Assembly (NCBI RefSeq): GCF_963678975.1 | Contig: NC_089275.1 | Span: 17,496,220-17,560,219, forward strand | DNA length: 64,000 bases | Direction of reading: 5' to 3' | From: Dysidea avara | Lineage: Eukaryota > Porifera > Demospongiae > Dictyoceratida > Dysideidae | Part shown: positions 8,901 through 64,000 of the stretch, piece after piece | Layout of the letters: every line of letters starts with the position of its first letter | How positions within the stretch are numbered: the stretch's first letter is position 1 | Translations under genes and position numbers: made by a program | Notes under the pieces: generated by a model | The model's database searches: none | Seen by the model: the letters and a program-made list of their open reading frames with translations, nothing else | What the model was told of the DNA's origin: nothing

Positions 8901-11900
8901 TGCATGGTCACACTACGACCCTTTTTCAAGCTCACCGTAGTTTGTTGGTTGTTTTTAATATCGTCTTCGATATGGGTAGTGAAATTTTAGCACAGCTAAA
9001 GAAGTTATCTGATGGAATGGCGTTGATACGCCAAGACGTCGACGCGCTGAAACGTGAGAGCTCGTTTCAGCCTTGCACCTCTGAGGAGGTTGTCGACGAT
9101 AGAGGAGGGGATGATACGACAGACGATTCTGTCCAACCCTCTGGCCAGCCACTTGCTAACAGCAGTGGTGGCCTAGCGGCCCAGGATACTACTGCCCTCA
9201 ACCAGGGCTCCTTGTGGGCCGAGGAGATGGATGTCCGTGACCCACTGTTGGATGATGACTTGCCAACTAAGGGAGCAGTTCCCATCAATGTTGTTCCAGT
9301 GACCGAACGGATTGATAAGTTCCTAAATGAAGCATTCACTCTCAAGATGACGGGAGCTGACAGGCGATTTCTACGTAGTCTCTACACGCTGCCGCAAAAC
9401 CAGCTAACAAGAACCCATTCCTTGACACGATGATGGCGTCCGAGTGTTCCAGAGCTTCCAAATCGACGGACCGCTCATTATACATGCTACAAGGACTTAT
9501 CCTAGAAGCCATCGGACCGCTCAGCCAGCTCCTAGAGGCAGTGAACAATCCTAACCCTCAACTGACAATGGATCAGATATGGGATGCTGTCGAGACAGCC
9601 ATCACCCTTCTTGCTAACGCCTCCAACAAGACATCACTGATGAGGAGGACTAAAATCCTGGAGGAATACAATAAGGAACTGGTGTCCTTTGCTGCTGCCC
9701 AGGAGAGAGATTGGGCAAGTGCAGCCCTTTGCCTTTTTGGGCCAAATTTCCTAAAAGAAGCTGCGGACTATCTGCAGAATCTCCAGCTGATCCGGAAAGT
9801 AAAGCAGCCACCCCAGGGTTTTCGGCACCCCCCCCCCCCTGGAGTCAGCAAGGGGGGGGGGCAAAGCCTCACAGTCATGGAAACAAACCCCATACTCTCG
9901 CCCAGCCAATCAGAAGGTTCACCCCTCAGGAAGGAGGACCTTCCAGAAGAAGAAATGACTAGACTCAACAATTTGTAAGCACAATGTTTTGATGCTGTCA
10001 AATTCAATTGTTGTTTTGAATCCTATGTTGGTCAAAGCAAAGGGCATGGGGTTCATCTTGCCAGCTCAAACAGAGAGTTTGTTGCAGGTGGCAGGCAGAT
10101 TAGCTCTCTTTATCAACACCTGGAAGGTGTTTACGAAGGACTATTGGGTTTTACAGACTGTCAAAAGATTTCAAATTCCCTTTGTTGGGCAACCTGTTCA
10201 GGAAAGGAAACCAGGAGTGGCTTCCTTCCCATCAGAGCAACTAGCTCAAATGCAGGAAGAAGTCTCTTCCCTGTTGGAGAAAGGGGCAATAATTGTGGTA
10301 GACAGTCACACCCCTCAGACAGGGTTCTACTCTGTTCTGTTCCTGGAAGAATGGGCAAATGAGACCAGTTATCAACCTCAAAGCCCTCAACCAGTGGGTA
10401 GAAATCCCTCATTTCAAAATGGAAGGTCTAACCACCCTCCGAGACCTTTTGAGGCAGGGAGATTGGTTAGTAAAAGTAGACTTAAAAGATGCATACCTCA
10501 CAGTACCAGTGCATCCGGACCATCAATGCTACCTTCGTTTCAGCGTAGAGGGAGTTTACCTGTCTCCCATTCGGGCTGGCATGTGCCCCGTGGGCCTTCA
10601 CCAAGGTAATGAAAGCTGTGGTGACCTTGCTCAGATCATGGGGGACAAGGATAATAATCTACATAGACGACATCTTGATCATGTCAGAGTCTGCAGTGTC
10701 AGCAGCACAGTACTTAGAGGTGTTAATTCACATATTACAATGTCTAGGGTTCATCATCAACACCGAGAAATCGGTAATGACTCCAACTCAGGAGATAGAA
10801 TTCCTGGGCATGAGGGTGAACACCAATACCCTGCTAGTCAGCCTCCCAGCAGACAAGGTGAAACAGATTCGGGAGGAGATGGTCAGAATAGCCAACATGA
10901 CCTCCTTGTCAGCCCGACTCCTGTCTCATTTTCTGGGGAAACTCAGCGCAGCTACTCAAGCTATTCCACCAGCCCCACTGTTCTACCGTTGCTTACAGAG
11001 AGACTTACAAACAGCCCTAGCAGACAACAATCAGAACTACGAGGCTCTCCTATCCCTCTCGCAAGCCTCCCTAGAAGAGCTCTACTGGTGGAGAGAACAT
11101 CTATCCAGATGGAATGGGAAACCTCTCAGGCAGAAACCAGAGCAAGTGGCTATCAGCTCCGATGCTTCCCAGCTGGGCTGGGGAGTAGCTTGTGCAGAGA
11201 CACGCATAGGGGATGCCTGGTCTGCACAGGAACAAGCCATGCACATCAACTGCTTGGAGCTGCTAGCAGCCACACTTGCAGTGAAGACGTTCCTGAAGGA
11301 TGCTTCGGGCATCTCAGTACTTCTTCAGTTGGACAATACCACGGCGGTGGCTTACGGGGGCACAGTGTCGAGCCAGTTGACAGAACTGGCCAAGGAATTG
11401 TGGATGTGGGCTCTAGACAGGGAGATAGCCCTGTCAGCCCAGGAGTGTCCAACACCATAGCGGACATAGAATCCCGAACAGTCAGGGACAGATCAGACTG
11501 GATGCTCTGCCCACGCATTTTCTGAGTCATCGAGGAAGCATTCGGCCCTCTGGAGGTGGATCTATTTGCATCCAGACTAACATACCAGTTACCTCGCTTC
11601 TTCAGTTGGAGACCAGATCCTCTGGCAGAGGCAGTAGATGCATTCCAGCAGGATTGGAGCCCACTGAGGGGATTTGCCAATCCGCCTTGGTGCTTGATAG
11701 GCAGAATCCTGAGCCAAGCTCGTCAACAGCAAGCTCAACTGGTGCTAGTAGCACCAGTGTGGCAGGGTCAGACCTGGTACCCAGTACTTCTAGAGATGTT
11801 GTGGCATTTCCCCAGGCTGATTGCACCTATCCCATGCCTAATCCAGAGACCAACAGGCTCCCGGATGGAGATAATTCCTCAACTAGCTGTGTGGCCTGTC

Positions 11901-14900
11901 TCCAGGAAAGATTCTCTGGTAGCTTCCTTTCGGAAGAAGCTACTAAGTTCCTGCTACAATCATGGAAAGCCAAGTCAGACCAGTCTTATGACTCGCACTT
12001 CCGAAAGTGGGCTGGCTGGTGTGCTGGCAATCCCGTTTCAGGAGCCGCCTCTGATGTAGCAAACTTTCTGGCAGAACTACACAGGCAGGGCTACCAGTCA
12101 AGCTTGCTGAATTCCTTCAGGTCGGCCATCTCCTCGGCTCATGATCAAGTAGACGGAGTTACTTTAGGCAAGCATCCCTTGATTTGCCGGGTGCTCAAAG
12201 GAGCATTTAATGCCAGGCCACCTCTATTATGTTATACAGTCACCTGAAATGTGCAGACAGTCCTACAGTATTTAGAGGGCATGGGACCCTATCACTAAAG
12301 TTTGTCACCTTCAAGCTGGCAATACTTTTAGCATTGACCAGGCCATCCCGCTCTGCAGATTTAGCTGCCTTGAGGGTCTCTACTGGACAGAGATCTGAAT
12401 TATGTGGGAAAGATGGGAAAAAAATTCCCTGAGTGGCTTTCCCTGCCTTGATTGTTTTGCCAGTGTTGCTGGAAAGAACACTACTCCTTCAGGTGTAAAA
12501 CGTTGATGATCTAGCTGCACGAGTCGGTAACCTCCGCACTTAGACCACACAATGTTAGCAACTTGTTCATTTCTCTAGTGAAACCTCACAAACCTGTGTC
12601 TTCAGCAACCATAGCCCGCTGGTTACGAGAAGTGCTTAGGTTAGCTGGCGTTGATGTGAGCATTTTTTCAGCTCACTCAGTCCGAGGTGCCTCAACTTCA
12701 GCTGCAGCTGGCGTTACTACCAATGATATCCTTAAGGCAGCAGACTGGAGCTCAGACTCTGTCTTCAGGAGATTTTACTACCGTCCGGTAAATGATCCAA
12801 CCTTTGGAAGATCAGTACTAGCCTCTGGCACCACTGAAACATAGGTTCTAGCTGTGGTTAGCAGCTCGACTTCACTTATAAGTAGCTTGGAAGCTACAAA
12901 CACCATTGATATGTGAGACTGAGCCTTCTGAAATATTATTTCCAAATGGCTCAGATCATGCAATGATTGCATGCCATTTAGAATTATACGAAGAAGGTGA
13001 AGTCGAGCATTTCGATGGTCCCACCCATTCTGGGTTCGCTTTCAAAGGTTGAAGTGTGACCATGCGGTTGGGTACTTATACGGTGGTTTTACGCACGTGC
13101 AATCCATTTCCGGCATGCGCTTTATAGAATTGTACTATCAACAAGCTGTAAATATTTAGGAATAAGGCCAAACACCATTGATATGCTCAACTTCACCTTC
13201 TTCATATAATTCCAAATAGCATGCAATCATTGCATGATCTGAGCCATTTGGAAATTAGCCACAAAAAAATCACTTTGCATTTCTGAAAGACCAGAAAACG
13301 GTTATATTAACACTGGTGTTATCACTTTAAAGTTTGGCCTAGTTGAAAAGCATACAAACATGACCTCCCTACTGCAAGTGGTGTCATAATGTACAGGGGT
13401 AGGTGAGTATGGTATTAGAAGTAGCTATGTATAGTGTCAATTGCTACACATGTACCTTGTCCAAATATTGAGGTATCAACTTCATCATCACATTGGAAGT
13501 GTGTATGGCCAAATCACTGGGCTTTAGTAGTACTGTGTTACCTGTAGTGGATGTGCATTATACACATGTGACTGAGTCTGGGGGAAACTGGTTATAGGAT
13601 TGGAATTAAAATTTTAACCTTTGCTTCATAGATTTCCGTATCAAATAAGCACAGTTAAGTTGTATGCTTTTATAGGAAGACTCTGTAATCAAGCTAGTGA
13701 TATGAGGAGCCCTGGACATAATATTTCATATTTATGCAGCTCTGATCCATGCAGTTGAATAAGAAACCCTGCCTCTTGTTCTAGATGGTTTTGAACACCT
13801 AACAAATAACTTGTTCTATCTCCTCAAGCTCCATCTTCCATTTGAAATCACAAAAACTGTTTGTTTACAAGGCCACCTCCAATAGGAGCATAACCACAAT
13901 GCCGGCGGCAACGACTCTTAACAAAAAACATTACATTATAGACATCCAATAGCTGGGACATAGAGCATGACAGAGTAAGTGTTCAAGTACAATGTAATTG
14001 GGGTCACATGCTCACACAAGCGTGCATGCACATGCATACATGTACACAATATGTATGCACTAACACACACAATAAATATATTCCTCTCTACCTGCAGCAA
14101 TGGCACCAGCCAGTGGCTGTAGTAGCAATACCACAGGATAGTTCCAGGCACTGAACACACACACTACTCCTAATGGGTCTCGTTGTATACACAATGTATT
14201 GATTATATTAGCCAGATCCTTCTTGACATGTTCTGGTTTCATCCACTCATCAAGATTGTTAATGGCATCAATGATCTCTCCTTTGGTATTGAGAAATTCA
14301 TTAAAGACCATGTCTTGTTTTTTCTACAATAAAAATATTCAATATTTTCAATTGTCATTTGTGCAAAAGTACATCACACATGGAGGCATAACTACAGAAG
14401 ACATAGCCAGTTCCCCTTCTATGAAAGAGGGTTGTCTGACTATTAGATGTATGCATGCACAATAAACCTACTGTGCTCACCTTTCTCAAGTCACGATGAC
14501 CAGCTTCTGTTATCTCATCTTCCTTCTCATCCAACATTCTCAACAGATTCTTCAATTGCTGTATCCTAAATGATTTCTCCCTAGTCTTTCCTGATCTGAA
14601 GCTCTCCCTGAGCTTTTTCACCATCTGCAAAACAATGTGACCAAATTTAATATATGTATGAAAAGATCCCATGTAGGCCTGTACACTGCCAACACAAATG
14701 GGGTTCTCTTTGATCACAGCATGGATACACTTCTGAACCAGACGACTGGCGACACTGACCACTGTACTTGGGTCAGGCTAAGACAATACCCGGTACCAGT
14801 GCTCGCAATGAGCTGAAGCACGGCCGGGACGTTATTTGGACGTCGACATAATACAGCAGAGAGACGGGGAGTAGAGAATAGCGGGTAAAAGTCGTGCGAT

Positions 14901-34889: not shown

Positions 34890-35829
34890 CAGTGGCGTAG
34901 CCAGGAAAAAAATTTTACCGAGGCAAAGTTTATACTTTGACCTAACGTATAATTGAGAAGGTCTGCTTCTGACTCAACTGATACACAAATACTTTCAAGT
35001 ATGGGTGGTGCAGCATTTGGAGGTTGACTATCTGATTGGGTGGAAAGTGTTTCAGAAGACTTATAGCTTTTCTACCTGTCATAAGTAATGCTCCAGCTTA
35101 GTTAATGCTACAGTTTACCATGCTACAATTATTTTAGACTAGTTTAATTGTACTCAACACAATTAACTTACTCTGGAGATATTTTGAGTGGTCAGGACTG
35201 CAACGGAGGTCATAGTCATGCACACTATACTTTTATCGATATGATATGATGTGATGTGTAATAAGTGAAAGATTATCTCTTTCATATGATGCTCAACTGC
35301 ATGTGCTAAGCATGTCAAGCTAGGGAGTCTGGGGGCATGCTCCATCAATGAAAGTTTCAAAAACATGGCCATGCTTTGAAATGGCATGTGGAGACCATTT
35401 TTTGATTGTAACTGCTATTAATGCATGATATGCATGATCAATTAGCTCAGTTCATTGCCATGCAGTTGACTCATTGGAACTTTAGAAAAAACAATTAACA
35501 TTGATTTAGACCAAGCATTGTAATGAGAACAGTGGCTATAATCTGTATACTAAATGCTCTATAGTGAATGCTCTATTAGAGTATATTACGATAACTGCTT
35601 TATTAGAGTATCTCGATCTTTTTGCAAATTCAAGTAGCTGTAAAGTGGTCCAGCACCGTGTCACCATGGGTTCTAGCCCTGCTTTCTATTATGTGTGGTA
35701 CAGTAATGCTGCCTAGTAAGATTTTGAGTAGAAAATCTGGGGTGCCAAAACTCAGGCCTGCTCAGCCTGTTGTTGAGCATTTTTACCGAGGCAGCTTCCT
35801 CGGTTGCCTCAGTGGTAGCTACGCCACTG
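34890..35829. mobile_element. DNA transposon with CAGTGGCGTAGC ends
   Basis: The left end CAGTGGCGTAGCCAGG is mirrored by GCTACGCCACTG at 35818-35829. The sub-terminal TTTTACCGAGGC occurs next to both ends but in the same orientation. Flanking 5-bp repeats TCTAT (34885-34889; 35830-35834) are a probable target duplication. No transposase is visible in 940 bp, so this is a non-autonomous copy. It lies just upstream of the ALDH copy B promoter region. Confidence 0.65.
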
Positions 35830-36256
35830 TCTATTGTGGGATAGAACACCATTGATAGCCATGGCACAAAACAAGTGACGTATGTGGAATCACTTAAGTG
35901 CATGGCATCATCAATAAGCTATCATAGACATCTAAGTTGTATCCTGAAAACGATGAGCTGGACCACTTGTTTAAACTAACTTGTTTACATAGCTAGGAAT
36001 AGAGGAAGGTAAGCTAGAAGGGCTGAGACCCACCTCAGTGGGCTTTAATCCTTCAACTTCTTCAAAATAGTGATCATTAATGCCATACCTATTTGAAAAA
36101 AGTTGCTGCTTGGACCCGACTGATCCAATTTTGCATAGATTTTATTAGAATTAAGATCACATGACACCTAGAATTTTATTTGTAATTGGTGCAAAATGAT
36201 TGAGATACTCTAATAGAACAGTCAGTGTGTAAAATCTTGAAAGATAAACATTATCT

Positions 36257-36576
36257 AATCCAAAACAGCCAAGCTATAAAAAGGAGTGCGGCGCTCAAAA
36301 AGGCTATGGTGAAAAAAGATGTGAAATCCAAGGTAGCAGCCAAGAAAATAGCTGTGATGGTAGGTTAATGGTAAAAATTTTAATAACAGTTCAGGTGAAT
36401 TTTGGTACTGCTTCGTCTTGACACAAAATTCACCTGAATTGTTGTTATTAAAAATTTTACCATTAACCTACCATCACAGCCATTTCTTGGCCGCCACCTT
36501 AAATTTCACATCTTTTTTCACCATATCCTTTTTGAGGGCTGCACTCTTTTTTTTACAGCTTGGCTGTTTTGGATTA
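36257..36576. repeat. Large inverted repeat (hairpin) of composite copy 1
   Basis: The left arm CAAAACAGCCAAGCTATAAA ... GATGGTAGGTTAATGG is repeated as reverse complement after a loop of about 20-30 bp near 36400-36425. Arms are about 145 bp with few mismatches. Within the arm a basic frame reads KKAMVKKDVKSKVAAKK-like. Confidence 0.85.
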
Positions 36577-36769
36577 GATTTTGCTTCTTTTTGTATTTGT
36601 ATACCCCAAAGTCGGCCTGTGGCCGGCTTTGGGGCTTTTTAACCTGTCTTTTTTTCTTTACCACAGGAAGAAGAAAAGATGAAGCAAATGTTAAATACTT
36701 TAAATATTTCTGATTTTATCAGTAAATGTACAAATTATATATACAATACATATATTTGTTACAGAACTC

Positions 36770-37420
36770 TACATAGTGGTTTCTTTGTAACTGAACACTC
36801 TACAAGTTGAGTCCTTCTAGCTGATCTCTCTACAGGGTGAATTATTTGTAGCTGAACTATCTACAAGGTAACTTCTTCAAGCTGATCTCTCTACAGGATG
36901 ATTTGTTTGTAGCTGAACTATCTACAAGGTAACTTCTTCTAGCTGATCTCTCTACAGGGTCACTTGTTTGTAGTTGAACTCTCAAGCTGACTCTCTACAA
37001 GGTAACTTCTTCTAGCTGATGTCTCTACAGGGTCACTAGTTAGTAGCTGAACTCTCTATAAGGTGAGCTGATCTTTCTACAGGGTGATTTGTTTGTAGCT
37101 GAACTCTCTACAGGTGATTTGTTTGCAGCTGAACTCTCTACATGATGATTTCTTTGTAACTGAACGTTCTACAAGGTAACTTCTTTTAGCTGATCCCTCT
37201 ACAGGGTGATTTGTTTGTAGCTGAACTCTGGTTTCTTTGTAGCTGAACTCTCTACAAGTTGACTTCTTCTAGCTGAACTATGTAGTTGAACTCCTTACAA
37301 GGTAACTTCTTCTAGCTGATCTCTCTACAGAGTGAATTGTTTGTAGCTGAACTCTCTACAGGACGATTTGTTTGTAGCTGATCTCTTTACAGGTTACTAG
37401 TTCCTAGCTGATCTCTTGAA
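36770..37420 (+). repeat. ~60-bp tandem satellite of composite copy 1
   Basis: Degenerate units of the form GTAGCTGAACTCTCTACAAG followed by GTAACTTCTTCTAGCTGATC, TCTCTACAGGGTGATTTGTT. About ten units are visible, each itself built of two related halves (AGCTGA...TCTCTACA). Confidence 0.85.
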
Positions 37421-38524
37421 TTTTTTTCAGGGTGACTGCTCTATTAGGATGACTGCTCTATTAGAGTATCTCGATCTCGCACTTGCTACACCAAGTTGGA
37501 TTTTGTGTTATAACTCCGTGGCCTTAAGTCTGATTCTTCTACACCATTGCAGAGTCTTTCTAAGATGATTACTCCATCTGTACAGCGAATTTCAAAGCAT
37601 TGCCCAAGCTGTTTTTCTGGTAGGCGTGAAAGTAGTTTTTTTATTAGCTAATCTCGATTGCATAATTGTTACACACTGTTGGTTTTTTTGTTGTATCTTC
37701 CTGGTTTTTAGCTCGATTTCTTTCAAACCACAAAAGGTTTGAGGTTCAATAGTAAACCTATTCACCCACCGATTTTCAGCTTCTTCCCATAAGCAGTTTA
37801 TCCTGAAGGTGTGACAACATATTGGTGTTATTGTTCGTGAATAATCGCTCATAACTCTTTGCCTGTTAGTCCAGCCAAAGTTGGTACCGAGGTGCGCCTT
37901 TATAGCCCCCCCTTCTGTGTGCCAAATTGCACGGAAATCGGATAAGGTGTTCGCGTTTTATAGCAGTTTTTGTAAGTGTGCGAAAAGGAAGAAAAATAAG
38001 AAGAAAAAACGAAGAAACTAAGCCAATTTTTGAAGTCACATATCTCGGGAACGCTTGAAGCGATTGTGCTCAAATTTGGAATGTGGAGTACTGAAGGTGG
38101 AGGGAGTGTCCATAGCACAAATCGTCTTGTTTCGTCAAGGCAACACAGAGCTACGGAGGTGCGAAAATTGAGCTTTCATTCTTCCTGTCAATATACTCAC
38201 GGGTGTTGTGCGCCGGCTTCTTGGGCCGCACAACACACTACCGCGTGTCTTGATCTATATGGGCATGTCTACAACTGTACATATATAGCACAGGTCAAGC
38301 AGAGGTAGTGTTTGGTACTTGCATCAGACACATGACAAATTTCGTACCCCTGAGAACATTAATAACGTATATACCTACCTAGGGATGACTTTGTATATGA
38401 CCAATACTCTCAGTGACCTGGGATGTATGTCAGGATTCAAACCAGGTCGGTATGATGACCCACTGCCAGATAGTGATTTTAATCTTAATTAAAACTGGGG
38501 CATACGTCAAAGGTATTCAGCTAG

Positions 38525-39035
38525 CAGTGTTGGGAGTAACGCATTACTTATGTAAAGCGTTACATAATATTATTACTTTTGTGGTAACAAAGTAATATAA
38601 CGAAATACACTATAAAAACAAGTAATAAACTCAAGTTAGTTTACTTACAAATGTAACACGTTACCTAAGTAATATAGTTACTGTAACGAGTCTAATATTA
38701 AGTAATATTATTACTACAAGTAACGAAGTTACTAATCTCAGTATTTATCCTCTGAGTAATGCCTAGCCACAACGAAGTAACGAAGCCTACTGAATGAAGT
38801 TTATTCACCAGCTTCTTCTTATAACCAAGATTTACACATTGTCCAACAACGCAATCATGTCACGTGATAGTGGGTTGTTTCACACGTGACAGCTTAAGGC
38901 TGTGGACACAAAGTAATATAATATTTAACGTTACTTTATTTTGTGGGTAATATGTAACTGTAACTAAATAATTCAGTTGCAAGGAATATGTTATGTGTAA
39001 CTAGTTACTTTTACAAAGTAACTTGCCCAACACTG
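38525..39035. mobile_element. hAT-like MITE (CAGTGTTGGG ends)
   Basis: Ends CAGTGTTGGG and CCCAACACTG are perfect inverted repeats, flanked by the perfect 8-bp duplication TCAGCTAG (38517-38524 and 39036-39043). The 511-bp interior is a mass of GTAACGTTAC/AAGTAATA repeats in both directions, as in known hAT-type non-autonomous elements. Confidence 0.85.
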
Positions 39036-39098
39036 TCAGCTAGCAATTAAGTAAACAGCTACTTTTAAATTAATGATCAATCACGTAAGCCTACAGAC

Positions 39099-39399
39099 TA
39101 GTGATGTACCGATAAGAGATTTTAATTAGCCGATTATCCGATTAGCCGATATTGAAATTCACATATTGGCCGATACCGATAACAGATCCGATGTTTCTGT
39201 TAACCAAAATTTCACATGTATTTGGTAAAATTGTCATTTTTAAAACACTATTTTGGTCTTACTTTTATGAAAACAATATCATCAGGGTCTGTAAAATTAA
39301 TTGGCGGATTAATCAGCTAATATTACCGATACTGATATTGCAAAAGTGTGGCCAATAAACCGATTTCCGATTATTAACCGATTAATCGGTGCATCAATA
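39099..39399. mobile_element. hAT-like MITE (TAGTGATGTACCG ends)
   Basis: Left TAGTGATGTACCGAT and right ATCGGTGCATCAATA are inverted, with several CCGAT units inside. The perfect 8-bp duplication CTACAGAC lies at 39091-39098 and 39400-39407. 301 bp, no coding capacity. It lies only 55 bp after the preceding hAT element's target duplication. Confidence 0.85.
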
Positions 39400-40129
39400 C
39401 TACAGACAGTAATCACATTTCCTGTAAGTGGGTGTGTCTTTGTGGACTTCAACATACCTCACTGATTGGCTACATGTATGCCTTTACAGACAGTATCACA
39501 CATTCCCAATAAATGGGCATGACTCACAAAAGAAACTGGCAAGGCTAGTTTATCACTCATATATATTAAATCCACATTGTCAAGCTAATTAATTCATTTG
39601 ATGTAATCCAATATTCTTTCTGACCTGTACAAAATGCAACCTGGTTGTCCTGGTGACCCAACCCAGTTCCAACCCTGGTATATACGCATAGTGATTCTTA
39701 ACCACAACAAATATTCCAGATTGTGCCAGTTTTTACATGGACAGAAAACTAAAATTATTCTGACACATGTACCCAGCAAGTGTTAAAAAGTTGTTTTTAA
39801 TTGTGTTCTATGAAGAACTATTTTACTGATTAGCAGGCATGCATATAAAACCAAATGTGGAATCACCATGCTCCCTGCCTCTTCCATTATCATTCCTTTA
39901 TTACTGTGAATAATATTTTTTAATTTGTACTATAATGTTTGATCATTGTGCTACAAAATTATGAGTGGCTTCTTGCCTATCCTTAGTGTAGACCAATAAT
40001 CTGTGTGCTATGTTGTTCCAGTGGCTCTTGGTACAATGAATAGTTACATTACTTACATGATTTGTCTGAATTGTAGTTTTCTTCAGGAATTATAGTGGTA
40101 TGTGTTGATTGTTCTATCATGATTTGCAG

Positions 40130-43100
40130 AACATCACCATCCTGAGTTAAAGCAGTTGATTAATATATTACAACCTGTTACTAGTGGAGTAGCAAAGCGA
40201 TGGTATGATATTGGTGTACAGTTGTTGGATACTGACTCTGGCACACTGGATGTGATCAAAGGGAACTATCCCACGGATATCAGTACTTGTTGTAGGGAGA
40301 TGTTCAAGGAATGGCTAGAGAGGCAACCTGATGCTAGCTGGAGTCAACTAATACAAGTGTTGATTGACATTGGTATGAAAACATTAGCAGATAAAGTCAG
40401 AACTACCCTGAAACAAAGTGTGTTCATTGAGTATGAATATGCATGTTTGTGATTTGCTATATACGTTTGTACTGTACAACACACTTTCACACCTACATAA
40501 CTATGCCTTTAAATACTTTGTTCATGTTAGGCCACCCCCTACACCATTGTTCACAACCAGGAAAAATGTTTAATTTAGTAGACAATGCTCACCTGATGAA
40601 GTAAGGGTGTGACTGCTCTATTAAAATATCTTGATCTTTTGTGGTCTAAATTCTTCTCAGTTTTCTTATTATTATTACATTATACGAAGTCAGCGGCCTC
40701 AATTGCTTAGGTGCTCTGTTTACATAATGAATATTTGGTTTTGAACCCAAAAGCATATACACTTCTAGTATACTCAAAATCTGAGCAAAAAAATATCATA
40801 AAAAATGTAATGACTGTTCATTTATTTACTGTAGTTACTATCTAATCCAATACAGCCAAGCTGTAAAAACAGAGTGCGGCCCTCAAAAAGGCTATGGTGA
40901 AAAAAGATGTGAAATCCAAGGTGGCGGCCAAGAAATGGCTGTGATGGTAAGTTAATGGTAAAATTTTAATAACGACAATTCAGATAAATTTTGGTGCCGC
41001 TTGGTCAATTGGCACAAAATTCACCTGAATTGTCGTTATTAAAATTTTTACCATTAACCTACCATCACAGCCGTTTCTTGGCTGCTACCTTGGATTTCAC
41101 ATCTTTTTTCACCATAGCCTTTTTGAGGGCCGCACTCTGTTTTTACAGCTTGTTTGTTTTGGATTAGATTTCACTTCTTTTTTGTATTTGTATACCCAAA
41201 AGCCGGCCTACTTTGGGACTGTTTTAACATATCTTTTTTTTCTTTACAACAGGAAGAAGAAAAGATAAAGCAGATGTACTTTAAATATTTCTGATTTTAT
41301 CAGTAAATGTACAAATTATATATAATACATATATTTATTACAGAACTCTCCATGGTGGTTTCTTTGTAACTGAACACTCTACAAGGTGACTTTTCTAGCT
41401 TCTCTCTCTACAGGGTGAATTGTTTGTAGCTGAACGATCTACAAGTAACTTCTTCTAGCTGATCTCTCTACAGGGTGATTTTTATTGTAGCTGAACTAGC
41501 ATCTTCTAGCTGATCTCTCTACAGGGTGGTTTGTTTATAGCTGAACTCTCTACAAGGTAACTTCTTCTAGCTGATCTTTCTACAGGGTGATTTGTTTGTA
41601 GCTGAACTAGCATCTTCTAGCTGCTAGTCTCTCTACAGGGTGGTTTGTTTATAGCTGAACTCTCTACAAGGTAACTTCTTCTAGCCGATCTCTCTACAGG
41701 GTGATTTGTTTGTAGCTGAATTCTGTATTTTGGTGATTTGTTTGCAGCTGAGCTCTTTACAGAATGGTTTCTTTGTAGCTGAACTCTCTACAAGGTAACT
41801 TCTTCAAGCTGATGTCTCTACAGGGTCACTAGTTTGTAGCTGAACTGTCTACATGGTGACTTCTTCTAGGTGATCTTTCTACACGGTGATTTGTTTGTAG
41901 CTGAACTCTCTACATGTGGTTTGTTTGCAGCTGAACTCTCTACATGATGGTTTATTTGTAGCTGAACTCTCTACAAGGTAACTTCTTCTAGCTGATCTCT
42001 CTACAGGGCGATTTGTTTGTAGCTGAACTCTCTACATGATGATTTCTTTGTAGCTGAACTCTCTGCAAGGTAACTTCTTCTAGCTGATCTCTCTACAGGG
42101 CGATTTGTTTGTAGCTGAACTCTCTACATGGTGGTTTCCTTGTAGCTGATCTCTATACAGGTTACTTGTTTCTAGCTGATCTCTTGAATTCTCTTCAGAG
42201 TGACTGCTCTATTAGAGTATCTCGATCTCGCACTTGCTACACCAAGTTCGATTTCGTGTTATAACTCCGTGGCTTTATGTCTGATACTTCTACACCATTG
42301 AAGAGCCTTTCTAAGATGATTACTCCATCTATACAGCGATTTTCAAAGCATTACCCCAAGCGGTTTATCTGGTAGGCGTGACAAGCAGTCGTTTTTTATT
42401 AGCTAATCTCGATTGCGTAATTGCTACACGCTGTTGGTTTTTTCGTTGTATCTTCCTGGTTTTTAGCTCAATTTCTTTCAAACCACAAAAGGTTTGAGGT
42501 TCAATAGTTAACCTATTCACCCACCGATTTTCAGCTTCTTCCCATACGCGGTTTACCCTGTAGACGTGACAACATATTGGTGTTATTTTTCGTGAATAAT
42601 TGCTCATAACTCTTTGCCTGTTTATCGTAGTACAGCCACAGTTGGTACCGAGATGCGCCTTTATACCCCCCTTCTGTGTGCCAAATTGCAAGGCAATCGG
42701 ATAAGGCGTCCGCGTTTTATAGCAGTTTTTGTAAGTGTGTGAAAAGAGGAAGAAAATAAGAAAAAAAACGAAGAAACTAAGCCCATTTTGTGAAGTCGCA
42801 TATCTCGGAAATGCTTGAAGCGATTTCGCTCAAATTTGGAATGTGGAGTGCTGAAGTTGGAGGAAGTGTCCACAGCAAAAATCGTCTTGTTTCATCAAGG
42901 TAGCACAGAGCTACTGAGGTGCGAAAATTGTGTTTTCTTTCTTCCTGTCATTATACTCACGGGTGTTGCGCGCCGGCTTCTTGGGCCGCACGACACACTA
43001 CCGTGTGTCTTGATATGTAGTACATATGTTATAAGTAGTTTGTTTAGCTACTATACTGTTACTGATAATGAATTTGTTTCCATCATGGATCAGCCAATTA

Positions 43101-43779
43101 GACTGTTATTTTACACTTCGTAGATATCTTTGTGTCTCAATCTACCAAGAGTACATGCAGTGTAATCAAGATTCCTTGTGAAGCTAGTGTTGAATTTGGT
43201 GTTCTATTGGGGGAAATCCTTGAACTACTTAAAAAGAATGAAAGAACAAATTTGGACATTGTCAAGAGTATTTGTTCAAACTTGACTATCAAAGACGACA
43301 CTGACATGTTATATTTCAATGCTGAACAATTGAAGACAATAGAGGCTTATAGTGACATTGTAGCTTTATTCCGACAGCAGTTTAGATACTACTGGAGGTG
43401 GGATGATTGCACATTTTTAACTATTGTTGTTTCAAAATTAAAGGAAGGCATGACCTGTATTGAAATGATACAAATGTATAAGAAAAAATTGTGCAGTAAC
43501 CTTAAGCTGTGTCACATTTATGAGCAGTGTAGACAAGAAGGTTGTGACGTACCTGATGGATACTCTAAAATGGTCGCGATTATAAAGACCAAAACCTATT
43601 CAGATATCACTTTGAAAGAGTACGAAGAATTGAAAGAGTTCATTTCTAAACACTGTGGAGTAGAGTCCTATGTACTATGTCCATTCTGCAAGGCAGGTTC
43701 ACACTCATTGATACTGGAGTGGTACATTCCGTCAACTGCTGTCAAACACATGGTGGACATTGCTACTAAGAATACTTAA
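40130..43779 (+). CDS. Death-domain protein with a novel C-terminal module
   Basis: Two joined exons, 40130-40417 and 43124-43779, with the intron (donor GTGTGT, acceptor CTTCGTAG) holding composite repeat copy 2. Exon 1 is a death domain, the helical adaptor fold of apoptosis and innate signalling: VAKRWYDIGVQLL, MFKEWLERQP, SWSQLIQVLIDIGMKTLADKV with the typical W..L...L.xxG...LA helix 6. The second exon (217 residues) is unrecognised: a helical, Cys-containing region (IEMIQMYKKKLCSNLKLC, YEELKEFISKHCG), then LCPFCKAG and a closing LEWYIPSTAVKHMVDIATKN. It stops at 43777. No ATG is seen in exon 1, so at least one upstream exon is missing. The frame across the splice is consistent (one nucleotide carried). 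Confidence 0.72.
40848..43014 (+). repeat. Composite hairpin-satellite repeat, copy 2 (intronic)
   Basis: Same order as copy 1: hairpin 40852-41165, a degenerate GC stem near 41200, AGGAAGAAGAAAAGAT, satellite 41340-42200, TGACTGCTCTATTAGAGTAT at about 42200, tail ending TGTCTTGAT at 43014. It lies wholly in the intron of the death-domain gene. The terminal stem is altered (GTGTTGCGCG vs CGCACGACAC). The minus-strand frame at 42365-42691 is related to that of copy 1. Confidence 0.8.
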
Positions 43780-49249: not shown

Positions 49250-50885
49250 TTAGTGAAATGTCCACCTCAAAGTGTATCTGTATTTGATAAGTGGTGGTTG
49301 CACTCTAGTGAGATGTGTAGTGTAAATGCTGCCCTTGAATCAATATTGTGGCTATTACAATGCATTTAAATGCATACTAGTGGTAAAAGGGGTTGACTGC
49401 ATTCTGCAAGGATATTAATATTGATAAATTTTAATTATGGCCGTTATCAAAACTAATTAGCATTAACACCATTGCAACCATTTCTTGGCCGCCACCTTTG
49501 ATTTCACAACATTTTCACCCAGGCTTTTGAAAGCAGCATCATTTTTCACAGCTTGTCTGCTTTTGTGTGTTAATTGTGTGTTACTATTTTTTATGCCAAA
49601 ACCTATAGGGTTTTCTCACATAATATCACTACTATATAGCTGATGGATTTCTACTTCCTTTTAAAGTACAATATGCTAGTTTTTGACTAGTTGACTGTAG
49701 TATTAGGATGATTGCTTTATTTGAGTACGTTGATCTTGTTATTTAAAACAACTAAGTCATTAAAATTATCTCACATGATCAATTGCTAACATGTGTGGTC
49801 ACAGTGTTAAATATTATGGTAATTGAACAGTCACAACTAATACAAGTACTGTTATATCTATAGCTACAAAACTGATTGTTATCAGTCAAACTATCCTCTC
49901 CCTTTCATATGATAGTAGTGTGAATACTTCAAATAATTTTATGATGTTTACATATACACACACCTGTAAGGAAGTGACATTATGGAAAAATAAATTAATG
50001 CCTCAGTATAGTTTCCTTTATAAGGAAAATGATGAGTACAAAAGATGGCTATAGGCACAGAAGACTGGCATTATTCAAACTCAAAAAAAACATGTATTTG
50101 CTCTAGTGCATAAATTGCTTTTGCCTATATAGTTTAGCCTCTAGTTTGGGACTGTGGTCATGGAGGAGGCATGTAGACCAAAAATTCAGTTTGGCTATTT
50201 TAAATTTGAACACTTCTGTGGCCATTACATTGTTTACTAATGCTGGACTTGACTTTAGGTATACTGTGCCTCTTCCATAAAGATGTTATATCAATTCAGT
50301 ATGATACTTTTTAATTGGCAGCAACTTCAGGGTACCATTGTTTTTGTGTACCATCCTACTGTATGATACTGTTGCATACGTACACTGTAAGTATGTATGT
50401 TTTGCTACTGTTTCAGAAGGATAGCTGACTTGTGTAGCTACTTTGACATTATATGGAACTTACCTTTAAAGTAGAAAGTAAATGTACAGGAAGATACCTG
50501 AGCTCACAACAATTTTGTAATTTGTAACTTTTGTTGTTTTGTATTTACAAATTATTTTTACCAATGTACATGCATGTTTCATACCCCCATAATTGTGTGG
50601 ATAAGTGTAAGTATTTCCTTTGTATTACATAATTAAGTTTGTGTTTTGTGCAATGAAAAGTCACAGAGAGGGGTGGTCCCCACATCTTCCCCCTTGGTAG
50701 TGGTCCAGAAAGTTTTTAATATCTTTCAGACTGAATCTGTGTATACAAACATCAGGTGAAAAACATAGAGCACCATATACTGTAGATTTTAAGCATTTTT
50801 TATTGTGCTCATGACCTCGATCACATCACCATGCATAACGTATTCTGTAAGCCAAAGTGCTATTTACATACCTTTGTATTTGGAT
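49250..50885. other. Gene-poor stretch with a relic of the composite hairpin
   Basis: At about 49440-49570 one arm of the composite hairpin is recognisable (CCATTTCTTGGCCGCCACCT, TGATTTCACA, TTTTCACC, CACAGCTTGTC), followed at 49690-49737 by a degenerate copy of the CTCTATTAGAG motif. The rest is AT-rich and shows nothing I can support. Confidence 0.5.
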
Positions 50886-53573: not shown

Positions 53574-53934
53574 GGCCACTCCAAATGAGAGTGTAGTTTC
53601 CCGTCCTCCGCCCGCATCACGTCTGAGCACCCGCACTAAATGGTCATTATTGTCATTATTTTTCCAAAACCACTTCCTGTGATGCTTTCTGGAAACTTCT
53701 CATGGAGCCTTTTATTTTGCGTTGCTAAAAAGCACGATGAAACCTAAAATAAACGGTTCTAATGGTTGCTAGCTTGCAAAAAAGCCATTTTCATGACCTT
53801 GAAATCTTCTCAAGATCGAGATACTCTAATAGAACAGTCGAATCTTTAATAATGAATAATGATAATAAGCCTCCCGCCCGCACCGAAAAATGAAAACCTC
53901 AGGACGGGAAACTACAGTCTTATTTGGAGTGGCC
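53574..53934. mobile_element. PIF/Harbinger-like MITE
   Basis: 361 bp with about 34-bp inverted ends: GGCCACTCCAAATGAGAGTG / CACTCC-type right end reading back GGCCACTCCAAATAAGACTG, both continuing TAGTTTCCCGTCCT. It is flanked by TAA on each side (53571-53573, 53935-53937), the 3-bp duplication typical of PIF/Harbinger. It contains one inverted copy of the CTCTATTAGAG motif (about 53816-53840). Confidence 0.75.
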
Positions 53935-61240: not shown

Positions 61241-61467
61241 ATTCTTTCGTTTCAAACAATGCAAGAGTTTTTATTGTAATGGATTATATTACATTAATGT
61301 TATTAGGTTATGTTAGAGGAAGAAGTAGAAAGCTTTTGTGTGCTGCAAAGGATACATCATGATCAGAGACTCAAGTACTGATGACCATGCAATGCTTGCA
61401 AAGACCAGTCACAGCCTGTATAATATGATGTCACTGTTAACAAGTCACTGAGTGCAGTATTGTCATA

Positions 61468-62160
61468 GAGCAGTGGTTTTAATGAGGATCAAGTGACGAA
61501 GAAACTAATGCTAGAAATGGCCACAGGTATCCAATAGGTTGTCCATGGTGACGGGAATGTGTTACAATGGAATGGCATGCTAAAACAGTGCAAAGTATGA
61601 TTTTAGTTATACATGTACATATAGACAGTTTATATGTGGCAAGGATACAATGGTGACTGTTTGCAGTGTTGTCATTTCATAAGATAGAGCAGTGATTTTA
61701 ATGATCAAGTGACGAAGAAATTAATGCTAGAAATGGCCACAAGTTCCCAATTGGTAGTCCATGGTGACGGGAGTGTGTCACAATGGAATGGCATGCTAAA
61801 ACAGTGCGAAGATGATACATGTACATTTAGACAGTTTAAGTAGTCATCTGTATGTAATACGTGGCAAGGATACAACGGTGACTGTCTGCAGTGTTGTCAT
61901 TTCATAAGATAGAGCAGTGATTTTAATGAGGATCAAGTGATGAAGAAATTAATGCTAGAAATGGCCACAGGTTTCCAATTGGTAGTCCATGGTGACGGGA
62001 GTGTGTCACAATGGAATGGCATGCTAAAACAGTGCGAAGATGATTTTAGTTATACATGTACATATAGACAGTTTGAGTACAGTCATCTGTATGTAATACG
62101 TAGCAAGGATACAACGGTGACTGTTTGCAGTGTTGTCATTTCATAAGATAGAGCAGTGAC
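61468..62160 (+). repeat. ~220-240-bp minisatellite, three units
   Basis: Units start near 61468, 61685 and 61910 at TAGAGCAGTG(A/G)TTTTAATGA, and a fourth start is cut at 62149. Each contains ATGCTAGAAATGGCCACA, CCATGGTGACGGGA, AATGGAATGGCATGCTAAAA, CAGTTTA/G-type and GTGTTGTCATTTCATAAGAT blocks. Spacing grows 217, 225, 239 by small indels. All units can be read as HGDGxVxQWNGMLKQC. Confidence 0.85.
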
Positions 62161-63448: not shown

Positions 63449-63594
63449 GCATGATAGGCGATCAAGCTGAACGACTAGCTGAACGGCGACGAGGAGTAAC
63501 CAACAGAATTTCAGAGGCAGAAGCAAATTTGAATCTTAAAGGAAATCCCAACCTTTCTGGCCAACGAAGATCTAATGATGAGCTGGTTATATAA
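63449..63594 (+). CDS. Possible coding exon, unrecognised
   Basis: After TTCTTATATTTTAG an ATG (63450) opens MIGDQAERLAERRRGVTNRI, SEAEANLNLKGNPNLSGQRR, SNDELVI and a stop, 47 residues. It is strongly charged and helical at first, like a coiled-coil segment. The composite repeat begins over its last bases, so the true exon may have been truncated by that insertion. Confidence 0.35.
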
Positions 63595-64000
63595 TCTAAT
63601 CAAAAACAGCCAAGCTGTAAAAAAAGGTGCGGCCCCCAAAAAGGCCATGGTGAAAAGCGGCACAAAATTCACCTGAATTGTCGTTATTAAAATTTAACCA
63701 TTAACCTACCATCACAGCCATTTCTTGGCCGCCACCTTGGATTTCACATCTTTTTTCACCATGGCCTTTTTGGGGGCCGCACCTTTTTTTACAGCTTGGC
63801 TGTTTTGATTAGATATCACTTCTTTTTGTATTTGTATACTGCAAAGCCGGCCTATGGCTGGCTTTGGGGCTTTTTTAACCCATGTGTTTTTTTCTTTACT
63901 ACAGGAAGAAGAAAAGAACTTAAAGAAGAATTTTAGTACTTCAATTATTTTTGATTTTATTAGTAATTATACAAATTATATACATATATTTATTACATGC
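63590..64000 (+). repeat. Composite hairpin-satellite repeat, copy 3 (cut by window end)
   Basis: It begins ATAATCTAATCAAAAACAGC like the other copies. The left hairpin arm is shortened (63598-63660) while the right arm is complete (63660-63816). The stem AAAGCCGGCC-TAT-GGCTGGCTTT with T-run and TTTCTTTACTACAGGAAGAA follow. The satellite and tail lie beyond the window. Confidence 0.8.

Follow-up and report, generated by a model that had tools for sequence, protein, structure and literature searches.

Non-autonomous DINE-1/HINE elements have end modules, central tandem repeats and a 3′ palindrome and insert without target modification, as described in excerpts of PMC4067079. The oyster element Cg_HINE carries satellites in the same layout, and in the excerpted account its partner was likewise not found (PMC7492417). 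For DINE-1/HINE, these excerpts also give 11-15-bp subterminal inverted repeats and insertion in TT (PMC4067079, PMC7492417). Canonical Helitrons are recognized by a TC start, a CTRR end and a hairpin that lies 10-12 nt from the 3′ end (as quoted in an excerpt of PMC5148889). The FoHeli elements of Fusarium have non-CTRR ends, some subgroups have hairpins at both termini, and amplicons with joined ends occur, according to the same excerpt (PMC5148889). Central arrays of Helitrons and Helentrons seed satellites, and rolling-circle copying can yield tandem runs, according to the available part of a review (PMC12628747). In this study, we analysed a 64,000-nucleotide stretch of the genome of the sponge Dysidea avara (GCF_963678975.1, contig NC_089275.1; G000:C4:17496220-17560219), hereafter the window, which holds two full copies of a composite repeat at 36254-38253 and 40841-43013. 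Both copies have, on the + strand, a 5′-terminal palindrome of about 327 bp, a short middle module, a satellite of 30/61 bp, a conserved tail of about 0.82 kb and a 3′ hairpin, in that order. The dinucleotide A^T (^ marks the junction) is the canonical Helitron target, and some foldback transposons carry internal tandem repeats. A preliminary description of this DNA had already seen two 2-kb copies with ordered modules and had held that the combination fits no standard class. We found that the insertion pattern, the 3′ hairpin, the head-to-tail junctions and the layout are those of a non-autonomous rolling-circle element, though two textbook features fail. The repeat is probably a Helitron-like, rolling-circle transposon of the non-autonomous kind, and its insertions lie exactly between a host A and T.

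Results

The genome, 550.8 Mb in 108 contigs, was searched for further copies, and the ends were determined from 15 copies chosen with both ends in view. The set excludes L024, whose tail is cut, the dimer head L027, four heads whose own 3′ end was not in view or not found (L021:7451, W:63594, L015:1752 and L025:323), and five loci in which an intact head was not in view (L013, L018, L023, L026 and L028). All 15 copies read A^TC...TTGA^T. The 5′ TC after a host A was also present in all 21 listed heads, a result that is not fully independent because the heads were located via a match starting at that A. The element can be written as TCTAATCC...GTGTCTTGA, sited exactly between host A and T, with the 3′ terminus pattern TGTGTCTTGA^T. 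The chosen copies were 1,909-4,924 bp long and differed mainly in satellite length; their tails measured 811-836 bp, except in the row of L011, where the script took an internal match. When the tail ends were aligned, 26 of 29 read TTGA followed by T. The other three were L026 (TTGA then C), L020:6512-6578 (TTCA then G) and the truncated L025:2186-2251.

Three empty sites were then compared with their occupied counterparts. L012 and its empty relative L025 were identical in 173 of 182 columns, and L019 against L017/L018 and L020 against L021 showed about 78% identity; all were gapless at the site. These results demonstrate a clean insertion with no duplication beyond the ambiguous AT. No longer target duplication was found in 14 of the 15 copies, and in L021 the flanks share 4 letters, counting AT. 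The base preceding the flanking A was T in 13 of the 15 copies, and 3,337 of 9,739 exact heads genome-wide follow TA. At the sampled loci, inner arms were preceded by A rather than T in 10 of 11 cases, and outer heads with an exact 18-mer had T before the A in 10 of 16, the T content of the window being 31%. Inner arms should account for about half of the heads and are mostly preceded by A, so roughly two thirds of the outer ends may follow TA, compared with 31% T in the window.

The two ends were also compared with each other. Between the first 40 and the last 150 nt, neither window copy has a terminal or subterminal inverted repeat above the level expected by chance. The longest exact inverted match was 7 nt in both and was equalled by 47 and 54 of 200 shuffles. 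The two ends have only TC...GA in common.

The 21-nt 3′ end CACACTACCRTGTGTCTTGAT has 7,406 exact matches genome-wide (3,679 and 3,727 by strand), and the 30-nt head ATCTAATCCAAAACAGCCAAGCTGTAAAAA has 9,739 (4,867 and 4,872). The reversed patterns gave 0 in both cases, which excludes chance as their origin. Each palindrome has two heads, and the first 100 heads listed (contig C1 up to 4.86 Mb) made 35 exact pairs and 30 single arms; extrapolated from these, the genome holds roughly 6,300 palindromes. The 40 best-scored candidates were spread over 14 contigs (C1-C9 and C11-C15). In 21 tails of at least 700 bp and at least 85% identity to the window copy, the median divergence from their own consensus was 3.2%, in a set picked by similarity, so that the true age range may be wider. 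Beside these, the genome has older tails with about 66-75% identity. Some of them also have a palindrome or satellite on their upstream side, and the layout may thus have persisted through a split into subfamilies.

We next examined whether palindrome and tail belong together, using the 63 exact tails in C1:0-4.86 Mb. A palindrome or arm lay within 8 kb upstream of 27 tails and downstream of 11, and tails placed at random (500 trials) gave a mean of 6.1 and a maximum of 14 upstream. In the same interval, an exact tail stood on the correct side of 21 of 35 exact palindromes, at most 8 kb away. This is about what is expected when the exact tail pattern matches only 17 of 29 sampled tails (not a random sample), so nearly all palindromes may have a tail. 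The spread over contigs, the identical ends and the pairing of palindromes with tails bear out the earlier suggestion that the composite repeat moves as one unit.

Junctions between adjoining copies were counted by orientation. The exact head-to-tail joint GTGTCTTGA^TCTAATC occurs 139 times genome-wide. The tail-to-tail joint GTGTCTTGA^TCAAGACAC was found in 2 places; the pattern is self-complementary, so that both strands of each place were counted. The head-to-head joint had 0 exact matches. If copies had nested without regard to orientation, the ratio should be about 2:1:1; with two thirds expected as head-to-tail, the observed 139 of 141 has P of about 4e-22. The patterns were 16, 18 and 16 nt long, a difference too small to account for the excess. 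In the first 100 junctions listed, neighbours within 30 kb had the same orientation in 10 of 11 cases. A run of five head-to-tail joints, spaced 8.7, 4.1, 6.0 and 5.2 kb apart, lies at C3:35130555-35154601 and may have arisen by segmental duplication. A run of three such joints is located at C5:11361987-11377636. The junction polarity fits rolling-circle (Helitron-like) movement.

The exact limits of the window copies were set with A^T taken as the junction. Copy 1 is 2,000 bp long (36254..38253, + strand), between A at 36253 and T at 38254. It comprises the palindrome (36254..36579), the middle module (36580..36753), the satellite array with a unit of 61 bp, or 2 x about 30 (36754..37424), and the conserved tail (37447..38253), with the 3′ terminal hairpin at 38205..38234, followed further on by ...GTGTCTTGA^T. 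Copy 2, of 2,173 bp (40841..43013, + strand), lies between A at 40840 and T at 43014 and has the palindrome at 40841..41169, the middle module at 41170..41332, the satellite array at 41333..42184 and the tail, including the 3′ hairpin, at 42201..43013. The outer positions first reported for the region, 36253 and 43014, are thus the flanking A and T, and the element's own ends are 36254 and 43013. A third copy is present on the + strand, although it starts at 63595, after an A at 63594, rather than at 63590; it consists of a palindrome with a shortened left arm followed by the middle module and ends at the window edge (63595..64000). The single-arm relic placed at 49440 spans 49442..49559 on the - strand and has at most 78% identity to the arm. 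The hairpin described with 145-bp arms is also real, but its arms are a little longer than that. In copy 2 a 128-nt inverted pair, complementary at 94% of positions, runs on into a pair of 34 nt, so that the palindrome fills about 327 bp. The satellite, given earlier as about 60 bp, has a period of 61 built from halves of about 30 bp.

Several smaller features of copy 1 were noted by eye. The middle module contains a putative GC-rich hairpin (36604-36634, + strand) and a putative splice-acceptor-like stretch with its AG at 36665-36666 (+ strand); the acceptor-like site within 36640-36690 reads CTTTACCACAG^GAAGAAG. The arm at 36254-36380 holds a lysine/alanine-rich frame closed by a donor-like GTAGGT. 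The frame and the acceptor-like site are possibly captured exons. The first 27 bp or so of the tail (around CTGCTCTATTAGAGTATCTCGATC) recur alone at 35594-35619, 36198-36224 (- strand), 40602-40637 and 53813-53839 (- strand).

The 3′ hairpin has 10 pairs, with standard pairing in 84.2% of the cells of 29 aligned rows. Three pairs were changed on both sides, a number matched by none of 500 shuffles. This hairpin stops 19 nt short of the last A. Another, of 6 bp and 93% paired, sits right before CTTGA and stops 5 nt short of that A.

The palindrome arms were compared in 19 heads, from which L017 and L025:3092 (no recognizable right end) and W:63594 and L015:5419 (arm deletions) were removed to leave 15. 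Arm identity was 96.0% within copies and 94.7-95.1% between copies, and none of 5,000 permutations was as high. The closest arm was the own partner in only 4 of the 15 copies. Minor states occurred 88 times in one arm and 20 times in both, some of the 20 being subfamily markers. Six changes were present in both arms of a single copy and absent from the other 14; one of them, column 8, was also found in the left-out heads W:63594 and L025:3092. With the deleted-arm pair still included (17 palindromes), permutation could reproduce the excess: 24 states were shared, against a mean of 10.7 and a maximum of 54 in the permuted sets. These results only hint at homogenization within copies, one arm correcting the other.

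A protein encoded in the tail was considered and rejected. The longest consensus frames, of 135 and 155 aa, are open in 2 and 6 of 21 copies, and the tail frames had no third-position excess and no Pfam match above cut-off. No Rfam ribozyme family was found over 36100-43200 at E up to 5; the five Rfam matches in this interval were all under gathering scores, and three of them lie inside the copy 2 palindrome.

The Helitron Rep domain (PF14214) is abundant in the genome. All 150 scored of 230 candidates were above cut-off, many with long open frames. The flanks of about 1.5 kb taken with 20 Rep loci are too short to reach a 3′ end. Only one of these loci, L043, had a diverged tail, which lies upstream of Rep on the opposite strand and which we take to be an unrelated insertion. 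For seven Rep regions, selected by their E-value class, the sequence was read further downstream (L049, L050, L051 with L053/L054, L052, L055, L056 and L057). The element's 3′ end was missing downstream of all seven, some of which may not reach the end of the Rep element. L049 and L050 have a common 3′ end, a hairpin plus CTAG. Among the best 40 of 2,871 candidates for this 3′ region (query included), the others were 97-99% identical and stopped at query 1,158-1,184, which we read as the probable element end after hairpin plus CTAG. L051, its continuation L053 and the twin L054 (99.7-100%) also stop after CTAG. Because copy identity is so high, both families were probably active recently. A 36-bp match to the tail start lies just beyond the CTAG end of L054, with no tail. 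L052 gave chance-level matches only. No match to the element was seen in L055, L056 or L057, which were cut at guessed offsets, with other frames intervening in L056 and L057.

An exon-like frame of a host gene lies between copies 1 and 2 and is not part of the element (40132..40451, + strand). It encodes a Death domain (PF00531, E 1e-8, Pfam), which confirms the death domain upstream of copy 2. The frame at 43132-43776, downstream of copy 2, is without a Pfam match. The placement of copy 2 inside an intron of this gene is plausible. The element may affect the gene through double-stranded RNA or through the putative splice-like sites of the middle module. Elsewhere between the copies, 38530-39040 and 39100-39400 hold inverted or repeated motifs (GTAACGAAGTAAC; CCGATTAGCCGATA) that by eye resemble miniature inverted-repeat transposable elements (MITEs). 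At 9430-12247 there are overlapping frames, one with a reverse transcriptase domain (RVT_1, 1.7e-9). The frame after it looks like the start of a tyrosine recombinase, and we presume that this may be a DIRS-like retroelement. A tandem repeat with a 228-bp unit (3.1 copies, 87% match) occupies 61465-62159.

Discussion

The exact ends, the A^T insertion with its empty sites, the polarity of the junctions and the variable element length are direct observations, and a rolling-circle transposon is their probable explanation. Several findings weigh against this reading. The 3′ end is TTGA, not CTRR, and the two Helitron families with readable 3′ ends terminate in CTAG. No autonomous partner with the element's ends was found among the seven Rep regions read downstream. 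The tail of L026 is followed by C, not T, and the empty-site relatives of L019 (L017 and L018, and the window relative at 72%) read A^C. Insertion between A and T is indistinguishable from a 2-bp AT duplication, because an element that starts with TC after A and ends with GA before T gives the same letters in both cases. In C1:0-4.86 Mb, 36 of 63 exact tails are without an exact head within 8 kb upstream, and 5′-truncated copies or other heads must therefore be common. The head-to-head count is perhaps low: such joints would be very long palindromes, which DNA or assemblies may fail to retain. The tail-to-tail joints therefore make the better control. Covariation in the 3′ hairpin is modest: partners slid by +2 still give 2 double-changed pairs (compared with 3), and 26 of the 29 rows have C.A at one inner position. 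The 6-bp hairpin before CTTGA is without covariation.

Since no Rep region read shows the element's 3′ end, we infer the enzyme. A Rep/helicase from another element would nick the TC 5′ end, and one strand would be displaced through the palindrome, satellite and tail until displacement halts at the 3′ hairpin/TTGA signal. The single strand, or a circle, could then be joined into a new (T)A^T site. Head-to-tail multimers would come from missed termination or from copying round a circle. The satellite could grow or shrink via slippage or recombination during copying, and the palindrome arms might pair, letting one correct the other. It is conceivable, though we hold it only tentatively, that the element represents a separate rolling-circle branch, in which the near-perfect 5′ palindrome of about 0.33 kb would be the recognition or start structure, its symmetry kept by arm copying, and a Rep that has yet to be connected with the element would act on the TTGA^T end.

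Within rolling-circle elements, membership of the Helitron2/Helentron branch (HINE) instead of the A^T-inserting branch is unlikely. The left module, satellite array, right module with a 3′ palindrome and lack of target duplication agree with that branch as excerpted in PMC4067079 and PMC7492417, but the two window copies show no subterminal inverted repeats beyond chance, and insertion is at A^T, not TT. The element probably works like a Helitron and is assigned to neither named branch, because CTRR is absent on one side and the subterminal inverted repeats and TT insertion of HINE are absent on the other.

A cut-and-paste DNA transposon, or a palindromic MITE that acquired a satellite and tail, would make a 2-bp AT duplication. 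The AT...AT flanks are equally consistent with this, the left site resembles TA^T, since a T precedes the A in 13 of 15 copies, and the 5′ palindrome is like that of a foldback MITE. However, the ends have no inverted repeat beyond chance, palindrome and tail occur together in complete copies, and 139 head-to-tail joints against 2 tail-to-tail places are unexpected under random-orientation nesting, so we judge this origin to be rather improbable. A retroelement with a structured 3′ end (SINE-, Penelope- or retrozyme-like) could explain the stem-loop at the 3′ end and, by 5′ truncation, the tails without an exact head. It is nevertheless very improbable given the clean A^T insertion, the lack of a longer duplication in 14 of 15 copies, the tail without a conserved coding frame, the lack of an Rfam ribozyme family over 36100-43200 and the 3′ ends, at which no poly-A was seen. 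Local segmental duplication or chance nesting of independent modules, which the headless tails and the plainly nested loci L012 and L025 might suggest and which the preliminary description had named as its own refutation, is scarcely credible, as the same two ends recur in all 15 chosen copies at different sites, heads lie upstream of tails well beyond random placement (27 of 63 against 11 downstream), and three clean empty sites largely refute it.

The element is thus real, mobile and abundant; its kind is understood, but its 5′ end is unusual. The family is very abundant and, in the sampled copies, young. A single assembly holds 139 of its joined-end junctions, together with exact ends and clean empty sites, and so documents on a large, natural scale the ways in which rolling-circle elements may end, form concatemers and enlarge their internal satellites. 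It is unusual for thousands of copies to carry a long palindrome at the 5′ end, and the question arises whether this palindrome is needed for mobility. For any copies in transcribed introns, a further question is whether it makes double-stranded RNA. No title listed in our literature searches reports a Helitron-like element that has a giant palindrome at its 5′ end; this is weak evidence of absence.

Compared with known systems, the element is like Helitron1 in its 5′ TC, the hairpin near the 3′ end, the lack of terminal inverted repeats and the A^T insertion. Unlike Helitron1, it ends in TTGA rather than CTRR, the spacing of its hairpin from the end does not clearly fall at 10-12 nt, a giant palindrome forms its 5′ end, and a Rep-coding relative was not found among the seven Rep regions. 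With DINE-1/HINE and Cg_HINE, as excerpted, it shares two end modules round a tandem array, a 3′ palindrome and the lack of target duplication at empty sites. It differs from DINE-1/HINE in having A^T insertion and no subterminal inverted repeats, and in its 5′ end, a palindrome of about 327 bp where theirs, in these excerpts, is a short inverted repeat. The FoHeli elements, in the part of the account available, resemble it in non-CTRR ends, terminal hairpins and joined-end amplicons; theirs are short terminal hairpins with asymmetric inverted repeats, and the latter were not found in the element. The foldback or palindromic transposons, such as Tetris and Galileo, have similarly long inverted arms, whereas here the palindrome stands at one end only and the other end is unrelated sequence. 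What is new is a 5′ end formed by a giant palindrome, in what is probably a Helitron-like non-autonomous element.

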